Source: Gammaproteobacteria bacterium
GTDB taxonomy: Bacteria; Pseudomonadota; Gammaproteobacteria; Xanthomonadales; Wenzhouxiangellaceae
Assembly (NCBI GenBank): GCA_018819105.1
Contig: JAHJQV010000030.1
Span: forward strand, 1-63,654
Reading direction: 5' to 3'
Length of the DNA: 63,654 nt
Shown: piece by piece, positions 402 to 63,654 of the stretch
How the letters are laid out: every line of letters starts with the position of its first letter
How positions within the stretch are numbered: position 1 is the first letter of the stretch
Program-made: the position numbers and the translations under genes
Notes under the pieces: generated by a model
Database searches by the model: none
What the model was told of the DNA's origin: nothing
Seen by the model: only the letters and a program-made list of their open reading frames with translations

Positions 402-1280
402 ATGTCTGCTAATCCGTATTTGACGAACACCGTCAGGGCAGTGGTGATCAATGTCGATACCGGCCCGGTCACCGCATTGGCGGTGTTAAGTCTGCAGCGT
501 TACTACCAGTTTCCGATCACACTCGTTGACTGCAGCAGAAAACTCGATCAACAGCAATATGCCCGCGAGCTGGCGCAACATCTGCAGCTAGAGTTGGTGT
601 TACAGCCCTTGCGTCCGCATGGTGAAACGCTGGATCAGTTGCTGCTGAAAACTGACGCCGAGCATGTGCTGCTGCTGGATTCAGATGCTGAACTGCTGGG
701 AGAAGAAATGCTTGAGCAGATGATCGCCTGTACGTCGGACAGACAGTCGTTTGGCTCTGGATTTGTACAGCAGACCATGGACATGTCCAGCCACTCGATG
801 CCGTTCAACTGGTATTGCTCAAGAATGTGGATTCCTTGCTGCATGCTGCACACCAGTCCGGTGAAAGAGGCGCTGAATCGAGGTGTTTCATTTGCTGGTA
901 AAAAAATTTACAACGATTTGCCAAACTGGCCGAGACTCTCCAGGATACTGTCTTATCGCCAGCGACTGCCGGGTGGCAACAGGCTAAGGTTGACCATGCT
1001 TGACAGATTCCGAAACAACTATTTCGGCGTCAAGCCGACTGCTGTGGTCTACGATACCGGTGCCATCATCTTCAATGACTTGCTCGCGCGCGGCTATACA
1101 TTCCAGCAACTGGACTGGCGTCTGCAACAGCAATGTGTGGCGCATTATCATGGCGTGACACGTCATGGGCTGAACTGGTTTGATCACCAGGCCACCAGTC
1201 AGCGCTATGCCTTCGAGCATGCCATGCAGCGCATCCGTGAGCATTATCCAGGCAGTCTGCCGGCATCGTTGTTGCGCTGA
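402..1280 (+). CDS. Glycosyltransferase-like protein
   Basis: The 292-residue product has the look of a GT-A fold (family 2-like) glycosyltransferase: an N-terminal alternating strand/helix segment, then a hydrophobic strand running into an acidic DSD motif at residues 93-95 that would bind metal and nucleotide sugar. I see no signal peptide or membrane segment. An upstream in-frame ATG at 297 exists, but ATG 402 is preceded by AAAGGAG at 384-390 with good spacing, so 402 is preferred. It stands alone and converges with hslV, the stop codons being 13 bases apart. Acceptor and donor sugars cannot be deduced. Family assignment rests only on the DxD-type motif and general pattern. Confidence 0.5.
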   Translation: MSANPYLTNTVRAVVINVDTGPVTALAVLSLQRYYQFPITLVDCSRKLDQQQYARELAQHLQLELVLQPLRPHGETLDQLLLKTDAEHVLLLDSDAELLGEEMLEQMIACTSDRQSFGSGFVQQTMDMSSHSMPFNWYCSRMWIPCCMLHTSPVKEALNRGVSFAGKKIYNDLPNWPRLSRILSYRQRLPGGNRLRLTMLDRFRNNYFGVKPTAVVYDTGAIIFNDLLARGYTFQQLDWRLQQQCVAHYHGVTRHGLNWFDHQATSQRYAFEHAMQRIREHYPGSLPASLLR

Positions 1281-4384: not shown

Positions 4385-4460
4385 TGGTGCCGGCACACGG
4401 ATTCGAACCGCGGACCTACTGATTACAAATCAGTTGCTCTACCAGCTGAGCTATACCGGC
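4385..4460 (-). tRNA. tRNA-Thr (anticodon TGT)
   Basis: The reverse strand folds as a 76-nt tRNA: acceptor GCCGGTA paired with TGCCGGC (one G-T), D arm GCTC..GAGC, anticodon arm ACTGA-TTTGTAA-TCAGT with anticodon TGT, T arm closing TTCGAAT, and an encoded CCA end at 4385-4387. It lies between the oligopeptidase gene and the sigma factor gene. Confidence 0.96.
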
Positions 4461-60851: not shown

Positions 60852-61310
60852 TTAGCATCCGTCGTGAATTCGGTGGCTCGTGGTGTCAACCGGATTGATC
60901 AGCTGGGTAAATCCATAGTCCTCGAAGCCTCGGGTATTGCGGGTGGCGAATTCGGTGATGCCGTGGTATCGCAGGGTCAAGGCGATACGGGCGTCAAAAA
61001 CTGCCCGTCGCGCGATGTCGGGACGTTGCGCAATGACCCAGACTTTGTCCATGATCGGCGCGTTTTCTATCATTGCCCAACGAGGATTCTCACGCCACTG
61101 CAAGCAGACTGCGGCCGCATCCGCTGCATTGAGGGGAAAATTCAAAACTGCTCGGTTTCGTAGCAGTTGATAGAGTTCAACCAGCACCAGGTCGCAGATT
61201 GCAACATCGTCGCGTGATCCACATTCCTCGATAAATGCTCGTGCCGGTCGGTGCTCCGGACAGTCCTCGTTCTGTGCGTAGAGAAGGATATTGGAGTCGA
61301 TGGAAAGCAC
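60852..61310 (-). CDS. PIN-domain toxin (VapC-like)
   Basis: A 152-residue PIN-domain ribonuclease, presumably cutting RNA (often initiator tRNA or rRNA) until bound by its antitoxin. Acidic active-site residues are visible in LSIDSNILLYA (Asp), LVLVELYQLLRN (Glu) and FDARIALTLRYHGITEFATRNTRGFEDYGF (Asp residues). GTG 61310 is chosen as start because AAGGA lies seven bases upstream; a TTG immediately before is possible. The start is 10 bases from the antitoxin stop, as is usual for two-gene toxin operons. Confidence 0.85.
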   Translation of the reverse strand: MLSIDSNILLYAQNEDCPEHRPARAFIEECGSRDDVAICDLVLVELYQLLRNRAVLNFPLNAADAAAVCLQWRENPRWAMIENAPIMDKVWVIAQRPDIARRAVFDARIALTLRYHGITEFATRNTRGFEDYGFTQLINPVDTTSHRIHDGC

Positions 61311-61320
61311 CAATGAGTCC

Positions 61321-61548
61321 TTAGCTATTCGCGAGTTCGCGCCAGTCGTCCTCCTGGGCCTGGAACGCTCCCAGGCTGATGGGCGCGGGCGGCCGCCAGG
61401 GGCGCTGGTCAGGACGAGGCGGATAGATACGCTGCATGTGCTCCAGTCCCCGTCGCAGCACTTCTGCCAGGCTGATCTCCTGTTCAGCAGCAATCCGCTT
61501 GGCTTCGCGATAAAGCTCGTCAGGTAATTGAATTTGGGTTCTGATCAT
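61321..61548 (-). CDS. Ribbon-helix-helix antitoxin (VapB/CopG-like)
   Basis: A 75-residue protein whose N-terminus [20 protein letters not shown] and following helix [17 protein letters not shown] form a ribbon-helix-helix DNA-binding domain; the proline-rich C-terminus ([20 protein letters not shown]) would wrap the toxin. It precedes and presumably neutralises the PIN-domain toxin and represses the operon by binding the repeats just upstream. Confidence 0.85.
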
Positions 61549-61589
61549 GATGTAGATCGTACACCGATGTAGAAACGATGTCTAGATCG
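61549..61589 (-). promoter_or_regulatory. Candidate autoregulatory operator of the toxin-antitoxin operon
   Basis: Three related boxes lie immediately upstream of the antitoxin start: GATGTAGATCG (61549-61559), GATGTAGA (61566-61573) and GATGTCTAGATCG (61577-61589). Closely spaced repeats here fit cooperative binding by a ribbon-helix-helix antitoxin. Confidence 0.5.
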
Positions 61590-61659: not shown

Positions 61660-61887
61660 TTCCTGATCAACCAGCCAAGTCATGGCGAAACTACTTACTG
61701 ATGTCCATAAATCGCTGTGATGACAGGGTATATCAGTCAATCGTGTACTGACTTGTGTGATGATCTCGCAGGATGGCATTGTGTTCTGCGAACGACAATC
61801 TTATTTGCTTGAACGATAGTGATTTTACGCAAAGGGTTTGCGAATTCAGATCAAATCAGGTACAAATGGATGGGGAGTGAGGGTGGT
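61660..61887. other. Intergenic stretch between toxin-antitoxin module and tracrRNA
   Basis: About 230 AT-richer bases without a gene. It has a small inverted repeat CGCAAA-GGG-TTTGCG at 61828-61842 and one copy of an 11-base word GGGAGTGAGGG (61873-61883) that recurs at 62000-62010 just before cas9. No CRISPR repeats are present here. Confidence 0.4.
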
Positions 61888-61985
61888 TTAGGGGATGTCC
61901 GGTCTTGCGACCGGACAGTGACCCCACGGCACATCAAATGAATGACGGCCTTATTGTAGCAACGGCTCTCACCCCGATTGGCTAC
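61888..61985 (-). ncRNA. tracrRNA of the type II-C CRISPR system
   Basis: The reverse strand contains the block CCGTTGCTACAATAAGGCCG (ending near 61946), then GATGTGCCG (61935-61927), the same core and order as the Neisseria meningitidis tracrRNA. Upstream lies an anti-repeat region (TACATGTAGCCAATCGGGGT) and downstream a strong hairpin: TGTCCGGTC/GACCGGACA with a GCAA loop (61917-61896), extended by an outer GGGG/CCCC stem. About 98 nt. It lies directly upstream of cas9 and is transcribed away from it. Ends are estimated from the promoter and hairpin; no U-run follows. Confidence 0.85.
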
Positions 61986-61991
61986 ATGTAG

Positions 61992-62020
61992 ACTATACAG
62001 GGAGTGAGGGCAAAAGTGAA
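61992..62020 (-). promoter_or_regulatory. tracrRNA promoter
   Basis: On the reverse strand, TTCACT (62020-62015) and TATAGT (61997-61992) are separated by 17 bases, a good sigma-70 pair. Transcription would start near 61985, just where the anti-repeat begins. The -35 overlaps the cas9 start codon region. Confidence 0.7.
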
Positions 62021-63551
62021 CACATCTGATAAAGAAATTTCTCGCCAGTACGTGCTGGGTCTGGATATAGGCATTGCTTCTACCGGCTGGGCTGTGTTGA
62101 ACAGTGATGACGGCAGCACTGTAGATGGCATCATTGATCTGGGTGTCAGAACCTTCGAGCGCGGTGAAACCGCCAAAGAAGGAGAGTCGCTCAATCTGGC
62201 CAGAAGGCTTGCCAGAGGCACCAGAAGGCGATTGCGCAGGCGTGCTCATCGCATGTTGCGTTTGAAACGATTGCTATTGCGTGAAGGACTGATCAAGCAT
62301 GACCAGTTGGATACAAGTGGAAACATCAAGTTCAGTGCTGATCCATGGCGCTTGCGTTCAGACGGTCTCGACAGACTGTTGACGCCTTTTGAATGGGCTG
62401 AAGTGATCTATCACATCATCAAACATCGCGGCTATCTTTCGACCCGAAAAGCAGATAAAAACACCTCGGACGATGACACCGGCAAGGTATTGGTGGCGCT
62501 GAAGTACATGAATGAACGCCTGCAAAATGGTGGCTGGCGTAGCATAGGTGAAATGGCATATAAAGACGATGTCGAGTTTGGTCATTCGATTCGTAACAAG
62601 CAGGGAGATTACCGCCACTGCTTTGATCGCAAGATGTTGATGAAAGAGCTGCAGCTACTGGCTGTGAAGCAGAGAGAGTATGGTAATCCGCATACGGATG
62701 ATGCTTTTGTTGACCAGATCACAACACTGCTGATGCAGCAACGACCTGCTTTGTCAGGTAAGAATCTGCTCAAAATGCTTGGTAAATGCACCTTCGAAAA
62801 ACATGAATACCGTGCGCCAAGGTCAAGCTATAGTGCAGAGCGCTTCGTTTGGCTGACAAAACTCAACAACCTGCGTTTGCTCAACAGTGATCGCACCAGG
62901 CGGGCATTGACTGCAGCAGAAAGGCGGACAATCATCGACATGCCTTATGAGCGAAGCACAGTCAAATATGCGCAAGTACGCAAGATACTGGATCTGCCGG
63001 ATGATGTCTTGTTTGTTGGTCTGCGCTATCGAGATGACAAAAATGCCGAGAACGAAAAGCTGATTGAGCTGAAGTCATGGCACAAACTGAAAAAAACGCT
63101 CACCGATGCCGGACTTAAAACTGAATGGCAAGGCATCGCCACCAGGCCTGATGAACTGGACAAGCTCGCCTACGCACTCAGTGTGTTCAAGGACGACAAG
63201 GAAATAACAGATTACTTGCGTGCAGAAGGATTTGATGATGCCATCATTGATGCGCTGTTGCCTGTCAGTTTCAGTAAATTTTCTCATCTTTCGCTGCTTG
63301 CCTTACGCAAGTTGATGCCACATCTGGAAGCTGGCATGCGTTATGACGAGGCGTGCACCGAAGCTGGCTATGATCACAGTCTGCCAGTCAATATTGACCA
63401 ATCCGAACTGCTGCCGCCGATCAACCCTGAAGATGTCCGCAACCCGGTTGTATTACGTTCGCTGACTCAGGCGCGTAAGGTGATCAATGCGATTGTTCGA
63501 GAATACGGACAACCTAAAGTGGACCCCATAGTCAAGACAAAATCCACTTGA
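62016..63551 (+). pseudogene. cas9: Type II-C Cas9, N-terminal half, interrupted
   Basis: CRISPR RNA-guided DNA nuclease. Visible parts: RuvC-I with Asp17 (YVLGLDIGIASTGWAVL), the arginine-rich bridge helix (LARRLARGTRRRLRRRAHRMLR), and the recognition lobe through IIKHRGYLSTRK and RNPVVLRSLTQARKVINAIVREYGQPK. Homologues continue with the RuvC-II motif (HIE.AR), HNH and RuvC-III; here the frame instead reads VDPIVKTKST and stops. The open frame is 511 residues, about half of a ~1080-residue type II-C protein. GTG 62016 has GAGGG five bases upstream; GTG 62004 is also in frame. Whether the remaining half lies beyond the insertion cannot be seen. Confidence 0.88.
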
Positions 63552-63654
63552 GTTTAAGCTCCACATTCCACACCACATGCAGCTGCACGGCGCTGCCCCG
63601 AATCTGCCTTGATCTCTGCTCCAGAGACCTTCTCGCTGAATTTGTCCACTATCC
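63519..63654. mobile_element. Foreign DNA interrupting cas9, partial
   Basis: From about GTGGACCCCATAGTCAAGAC at 63519 the sequence no longer encodes Cas9. The abrupt switch and the GTGGAC end suggest the terminus of an insertion sequence. On the reverse strand a frame stays open from the window edge to a TAA just before 63555 (reading ..VDKFSEKVSGAEIKADSGQRR..), possibly a transposase C-terminus. I cannot name the family; the far end is outside the window. Confidence 0.55.

Follow-up and report, generated by a model that had tools for sequence, protein, structure and literature searches.

A predicted Nme1Cas9-group tracrRNA gene beside a probably interrupted cas9 in a gammaproteobacterial genome

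In characterised type II-C CRISPR-Cas9 systems, the tracrRNA pairs with the crRNA, the RNA is trimmed, and Cas9 is loaded (PMC3936727, PMC7708072). The published sgRNA of Nme1Cas9 from Neisseria meningitidis contains the core CCGTTGCTACAATAAGGCCGTC (PMC6594998), and the same letters are found in the sgRNA of the AcrIIC1 paper (PMC9674691). With >50% identity as the working definition of the Nme1Cas9 group, PMC9433092 describes 29 Nme1Cas9 orthologs (59.6–70.4% identity) tried with the Nme1 sgRNA, 25 of which worked, with diverse PAMs. These orthologs come from Neisseriaceae, Suttonella and, in many cases, the gammaproteobacterial Pasteurellaceae; those whose residue aligned with H1024 is H or N favour R at PAM position 5 (PMC9433092).

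The window analysed here is the whole 63,654-nt contig JAHJQV010000030.1 (assembly GCA_018819105.1), which is contig C19 of a genome, G000, assembled into 68 contigs and 98.7% complete. It very likely carries a tracrRNA gene belonging to an Nme1Cas9-group type II-C CRISPR-Cas9 system. This gene lies next to a cas9 that has probably been cut, so that the tracrRNA and its repeat array are probably left with no working nuclease (Table 1). The original prediction, made from the sequence alone, had placed an exact N. meningitidis tracrRNA core on the reverse strand; the 22 nt of CCGTTGCTACAATAAGGCCGTC are indeed present there without a mismatch to the published sgRNA, as is GATGTGCCG further downstream. 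In both systems the repeat begins with GTTGTAGCTCCCT and the guide RNA ends in two 3' stem-loops. Compared with the published sgRNA, the upper repeat:anti-repeat stem reads CACCCCG here rather than CATTTCG, and stem-loop 2 differs. The system had been described as close to Nme Cas9; its Cas9 is truncated, and the N-terminal half is ~50% identical to Nme1Cas9 (246/488 aligned residues). The locus is a new Nme1Cas9-group type II-C case, and in the assembly its own copy lacks a complete nuclease (HNH, RuvC-II/III and PI domain) as well as a II-C cas1.

Table 1 Features of the locus and of two viral contigs (positions are those of the window unless a viral contig is named).
Feature	Position	Strand	Remarks
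tracrRNA gene, predicted, ~101 nt	61887..61987	-	anti-repeat, lower stem, stem-loop 1, stem-loop 2
Anti-repeat	61953..61986	-	complementary to the C60 repeat; two-sided base-pair changes among relatives
Anti-repeat, upper pairing TGTAGCCAATCGGGGTGAGAG, 21 nt	61986-61966	-	
Anti-repeat, lower stem GCTACAAT	61960-61953	-	
-10 hexamer TATAGT of the putative tracrRNA promoter	61992..61997	-	identical hexamer in the sister locus
-35 hexamer TTCACT of the putative tracrRNA promoter	62015..62020	-	overlies the cas9 GTG; kept in the sister locus
cas9, N-terminal half, ~500 codons	62016..63514	+	TIGR01865, 378.8 bits, profile positions 1-511 of 1070
Repeated insertion-element-like end, TAAAGTGGACCCC...	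63515..63654	.	interrupts cas9; contig ends within it
Solitary repeat GTTGTAGCTCCCTCTCTCACCCCGGATAGCTACAAT, viral contig L125 (IMGVR_UViG_2710723518_000003)	717-752	-	between genes
Solitary repeat, viral contig L126 (IMGVR_UViG_3300042453_004886, 194.6 kb)	886-921	+	between genes

The tracrRNA and its repeat array

Read 5' to 3', the predicted tracrRNA opens with the anti-repeat, followed by the core CCGTTGCTACAATAAGGCCGTC, then by a stem-loop GGCCGTC...GATGTGCCG, and last by a strong hairpin; its predicted fold with the genome's own repeat contains both 3' stem-loops. The conserved block measures 101 nt, close to the ~98 nt originally proposed, and closes with a G+C-rich hairpin, GGGG...CCCC. 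A scan of the locus for an intrinsic terminator found no hairpin with a U-tract 3' of this last hairpin; by eye, the tracrRNAs of two other genomes (G567 and G406), Pasteurella multocida and Acidovorax continue into U-rich tails. A covariance-model search had been proposed as a check; no Rfam tracrRNA family fired at 61888-62020. At gathering score, the window gave a single match, a tRNA (4388-4460), and within 61800-62100 the sole match up to E 1 was a chance-level sRNA (E 0.4).

Searching G000 with the locus brought up a CRISPR array that lies at one end of contig C60 (147936 onwards) and contains 28 units of GTTGTAGCTCCCTCTCTCACCCCGATTGGCTACAAT; the first and the fifth unit each depart from it by a single letter. 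Its spacers are 30 nt long, except for one of 29 and a last one ended by the contig end. The repeat had been anticipated from the anti-repeat, as starting with GTTGTAGC and ending near GATTGGCTAC, and a genome without any complementary repeat, together with the lack of a transcript from this strand, had been named as the outcome that would count against the tracrRNA; the 28 complementary copies on C60 bear out the predicted repeat and contradict the first half of that outcome. All 28 matches in G000 to the first 20 nt of the repeat (≤3 mismatches) lie on this contig. The anti-repeat segment TGTAGCCAATCGGGGTGAGAG is fully complementary to repeat positions 14–34 (21 bp), and GCTACAAT pairs with the repeat start GTTGTAGC over 8 bp, one of them G-U. 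The resulting duplex was calculated at -54.6 kcal/mol, compared with -33.4 for the strongest duplex among 5000 40-mers drawn at random from the window.

These elements suggest a pathway in which a promoter overlying the cas9 start codon would drive the tracrRNA in the direction away from cas9, and the 5' anti-repeat of this RNA would pair with the repeat part of crRNAs from the C60 array. By analogy with the characterised relatives, RNase III would then trim the RNA and Cas9 would be loaded. As judged by eye, a CopG-like small protein adjoins the C60 array (L009 9509-9850), and frames resembling a PIN-domain toxin and a small antitoxin (60852-61550, minus strand) lie just upstream of the tracrRNA region.

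A sister locus and more distant relatives

When named genomes were scanned with the Cas9 fragment, three loci came up, and only the one in the metagenome-assembled genome OFTM86 (JAJFKZ010000107.1; G149 in the order-wide search) was close, at 83%. OFTM86 belongs to the window's genus and is labelled Gammaproteobacteria, in line with the gammaproteobacterial host guessed from the sequence. Its locus is intact, with the tracrRNA on the minus strand, cas9, and cas1 and cas2 alone as additional cas genes (these two named by position and by eye), followed by an array of the identical 36-nt repeat, whose strand is opposite to that of the cas genes. The two II-C loci thus share genus, repeat, tracrRNA and an N-terminal Cas9 half at 83% identity, whereas OFTM86 differs from the window in having uninterrupted cas9, cas1 and cas2, an adjacent array and other spacers.

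The tracrRNA is identical between the window and OFTM86 at 101/101 nt. Past it, an ungapped comparison of the following 150 nt gives 38 matching positions, as unrelated DNA would. The cas9 DNA is 77% identical overall and 53% identical at third codon positions; at the protein level, 415 of 500 residues agree, with dN 0.104 and dS 1.74, a value at which synonymous sites are saturated. The dN/dS of ~0.06 points to purifying selection on the remaining half, which contains no frameshift. An unchanged tracrRNA next to a Cas9 half that has diverged by 17% means that the RNA is tightly held.

The distribution of the system is narrow. Allowing ≤2 mismatches, the core was found in 3/398 genomes of the order: the window's own, OFTM86 and a third (G127), where the match has two mismatches, sits in an ABC-transporter-like frame and was rejected as chance. 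The G+C content of the window falls from ~65% around 58-60 kb to 49.5% in the cas9-bearing end, and this drop together with the narrow distribution suggests horizontal arrival. This puts an Nme-type II-C system, along with its guide RNA, its repeat and a sister Cas9 that is complete, in a gammaproteobacterial genus represented by two species in our sample.

In a class-wide sample, a Cas9 match at E ≤ 1e-40 was obtained in 9/369 genomes, the window's own included; three of the other eight are Nme-like (48–52% over the match) and five lie at 32–37%. A divergent tracrRNA directly upstream of cas9 is also present in G567, G406, the Acidovorax temperans plasmid pEP1 and one P. multocida record. For a covariation analysis we used the four distinct repeat:anti-repeat pairs available, a small set comprising own/sister, G567, P. 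multocida and pEP1; G406 was left out as having no array on its contig, as was G726, where a repeat is present and an exact-motif search did not find the core. Across these four sequences, 98.3% of 116 cells are paired, and 7/29 base pairs have changed on both sides, a count equalled by 2 of 500 shuffles; the covariation score itself was equalled by 0/500.

The P. multocida record (NZ_CP020346.1, L115 9757-13061) resembles the window in its gammaproteobacterial origin, shared with the Pasteurellaceae and Suttonella orthologs of Nme1Cas9, and in its divergent tracrRNA upstream of cas9, cas1, cas2 and an array; its repeat is CATTTCGCAGTG, as against CACCCCGATTGG in the window's genome. The gene table of this record does not contain cas9. 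The corresponding frame is open for 903 aa, but the start beside the tracrRNA is not part of this open stretch, and so this cas9 may be broken too. The plasmid pEP1 (NZ_CP117194.1, L133 2879-13103) likewise carries an Nme-like II-C locus with a tracrRNA-like anti-repeat before a short cas9 (476 aa), and Tn3 and ISL3 transposase genes lie between cas9 and a 129-aa cas1. It differs from the window in being plasmid-borne, in having another insertion and in showing, behind cas2, one repeat-like unit. Insertion of mobile elements into cas9 may be a recurrent event in the Nme-like II-C group.

The probably interrupted cas9 and its overlap with the putative tracrRNA promoter

The window's Cas9 exceeds the cut-off of the TIGR01865 family, and its best PDB matches are Cas9 chains, which we take to be Nme1Cas9. 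The half that remains presumably comprises RuvC-I, the bridge helix and the REC lobe. Alignments to the sister protein and to the PDB chains place the break before a conserved HIE.AR stretch, which we assume to be RuvC-II, and before the HNH half; everything beyond ~residue 500, the HNH and PI domains included, is lost. The reading frame continues through the element as far as 63551. We consider it likely that the repeated element disrupts cas9, in which case the insertion would have cut the gene just before its RuvC-II/HNH part. The element end occurs with identical first bases at 8 contig ends of G000, the window's among them, and the flanks differ at the other 7; a search of plasmids with it gave no match. 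Many contig starts of G000 carry common repeated sequences of several families, the 63515-63654 stretch included, indicating a genome with an abundance of repeated elements, which break up the assembly.

The missing parts were sought in the rest of the genome. A query with the C-terminal half of the sister Cas9 gave 0 matches in G000 and matched 4/4 other genomes. No II-C cas1 was found in this 98.7%-complete assembly, its only Cas1 being a Cas4-Cas1 fusion below the family cut-off. A PF18541 search of G000 also gave no match, and was discarded as evidence since its control was positive nowhere. G000 has a second CRISPR locus at the start of contig C54 (L023 383-6245), with a Cas4-Cas1 fusion identified by eye and an array of 48 copies of CCTTTCCCCGCTGACAAAGCGGGGCCTCATTGAAGC. 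With the nuclease half missing, the tracrRNA and array are probably without a working partner, and interference in the window's host is probably dead unless a piece went unassembled. A perfect tracrRNA and an array, in other words, need not mean working immunity. The purifying selection visible in the remaining half, taken with the perfect conservation of the tracrRNA, suggests that the break is recent.

The same conservation would also be expected of a system that is still intact in the organism or in most of its cells, with the insertion polymorphic or the junction an assembly product and the rest unassembled or unbinned. C60 ends inside its array, on the side where the sister genome has cas2, so that C19 and C60 may lie on either side of a gap of ~3 kb or more; their orientation agrees with the sister layout, and both facing ends, a repeated element and a CRISPR array, are typical assembly breaks. 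Because the array stops at the contig end, the missing piece could have been lost in assembly or binning. Against this, the cas9 flank joins the element end just as the flanks do at the 7 other sites, and the C-terminal query, positive elsewhere, found nothing in a nearly complete assembly. The lengths of all 68 contigs add up to the full genome size, and an intact piece of ~3 kb would also exceed the smallest contig present; with the smallest contigs at 2046, 4129, 4464 and 4864 bases, a length filter alone would not have dropped it. We regard an intact system as somewhat unlikely and retain disruption of cas9 as the preferred reading.

The region where the two genes diverge was examined for promoters. 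The likelier cas9 start is the GTG at 62016-62018, with GAGG just upstream (62006-62009); an alternative in-frame GTG lies at 62004. Within 61700-62200 a promoter scan found one sigma-70-like site, on the minus strand, whose two hexamers are separated by 17 nt. This is the well-spaced promoter overlapping the cas9 start that had been described from the sequence, and both hexamers and their spacing are retained in the sister locus. The site matches 9/12 positions, a weak score, and shuffled sequences average 0.6 such sites, so that the site is not beyond chance and by itself proves little. From the layout, interference between the tracrRNA and cas9 transcripts is possible. The overlap could even be regulatory, with a cas9 mRNA started further upstream running antisense to the tracrRNA, polymerase sitting on the cas9 start, and each transcript limiting the other. 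The -35 hexamer covering the GTG, its retention in OFTM86 and the lack of any plus-strand site in the scanned region fit such a scheme, but the tracrRNA of G567 and that of G406 begin ~30 nt away from the cas9 ATG, so the arrangement could be merely compact. A regulatory role for the overlap is, on balance, unlikely.

Two further readings fare worse. The truncated Cas9, a recognition lobe without HNH and PI domain, might still bind tracrRNA:crRNA as an RNA-binding regulator, as its 500 open codons, strongly conserved relative to OFTM86, would allow; yet conservation that predates a recent insertion is uninformative about the time since, and the HNH and PI domains are gone after ~residue 500, making this very improbable. 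Least probable of all is a chance or decayed tracrRNA-like stretch without function in the lineage, which the broken cas9 might invite, but which is at odds with 101/101 identity at saturated synonymous divergence and with 28 matching repeats.

PAM preference, spacers and solitary repeats in viral contigs

The original prediction had also raised interchangeable guides combined with a different PAM. For the Nme1Cas9 group this is already established in print (PMC9433092), but the window's own cas9 is truncated, leaving no usable Cas9 there. At 50% identity its N-terminal half stands at the edge of the >50% definition, and judging by sequence, guide exchangeability is likely for its own branch. 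The OFTM86 enzyme should be competent and is a candidate addition to the exchangeable-guide group. In our by-eye reading of the PI-domain alignment, its residues aligned to Q981, H1024, T1027 and N1029 of Nme1 are A, N, T and A, which suggests a PAM with R at position 5.

Searches of phages with either the window's own array or the sister array gave a best match of E 2 and nothing convincing. Against plasmids, the best matches of the own array (E 0.003 and 0.04) were CRISPR repeats of P. multocida and Acidovorax, and the rest lay at E 0.04–0.5. When the window's own spacers A01–A27 were compared with 43 genomes of the family, 18/43 matched at E ≤ 0.1, own array included, the best match outside the own array reaching E 0.002. 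The seven loci inspected in family genomes (L118–L124) had 5–8 mismatches, and all of the matches outside the own array were taken as chance; spacer A22 recurs among them, its match lying in what we take to be an lpxC-like gene.

Viral contigs were scanned with exact 20–21-nt pieces of spacers A17 (its 5' end), B16, A27, B12, B15, A23 and A09, and 1/7 matched. This was the sister spacer B16, which agrees at 28/30 positions with viral contig L113 (10854-10883, minus strand), followed by the 3' flank AATTACTT. The protospacer-like match has A at PAM position 5, in agreement with the predicted R. The target encodes the motif YESKSGERGI, presumably of a ribonucleotide-reductase-like gene, and as it lies within a conserved coding motif the match is weak as PAM evidence.

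The first 24 nt of the repeat matched two IMG/VR viral contigs (Table 1). In the stretches analysed, of 3981 and 1601 bases, each contig has one full 36-nt unit, and the next best match shows 17/36 mismatches. RNA anti-CRISPRs (Racr) consisting of solitary repeat units have been described in a study that searched IMG/VR3 (PMC10651486), and the two repeats may therefore already be in its list; the functional tests it names are of I-C, I-E, I-F and V-A, and nowhere in its main text does "II-C" appear. We consider the repeats on L125 and L126 candidate RNA anti-CRISPRs on the strength of their sequence and position. Phages might attack Nme-type tracrRNA:repeat pairing through transcribed RNA decoys that occupy tracrRNA and Cas9, and the host's tracrRNA and array might have outlived its nuclease; this is a tentative idea that we lean against more than for. 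If true, the two repeats would be a type II-C RNA anti-CRISPR.

The L125 repeat finds its best pairing partners in the G567, G406 and Acidovorax anti-repeats. By eye, the L126 repeat is preceded by TTGAAA-17-TATAAT, a site with no visible counterpart on L125, and is followed by a small gene (80 aa) and, downstream, an HNH endonuclease gene. PHROGs matches were obtained for 3/7 nearby frames: a Holliday junction resolvase and a transcriptional regulator on L125, and the HNH endonuclease on L126.
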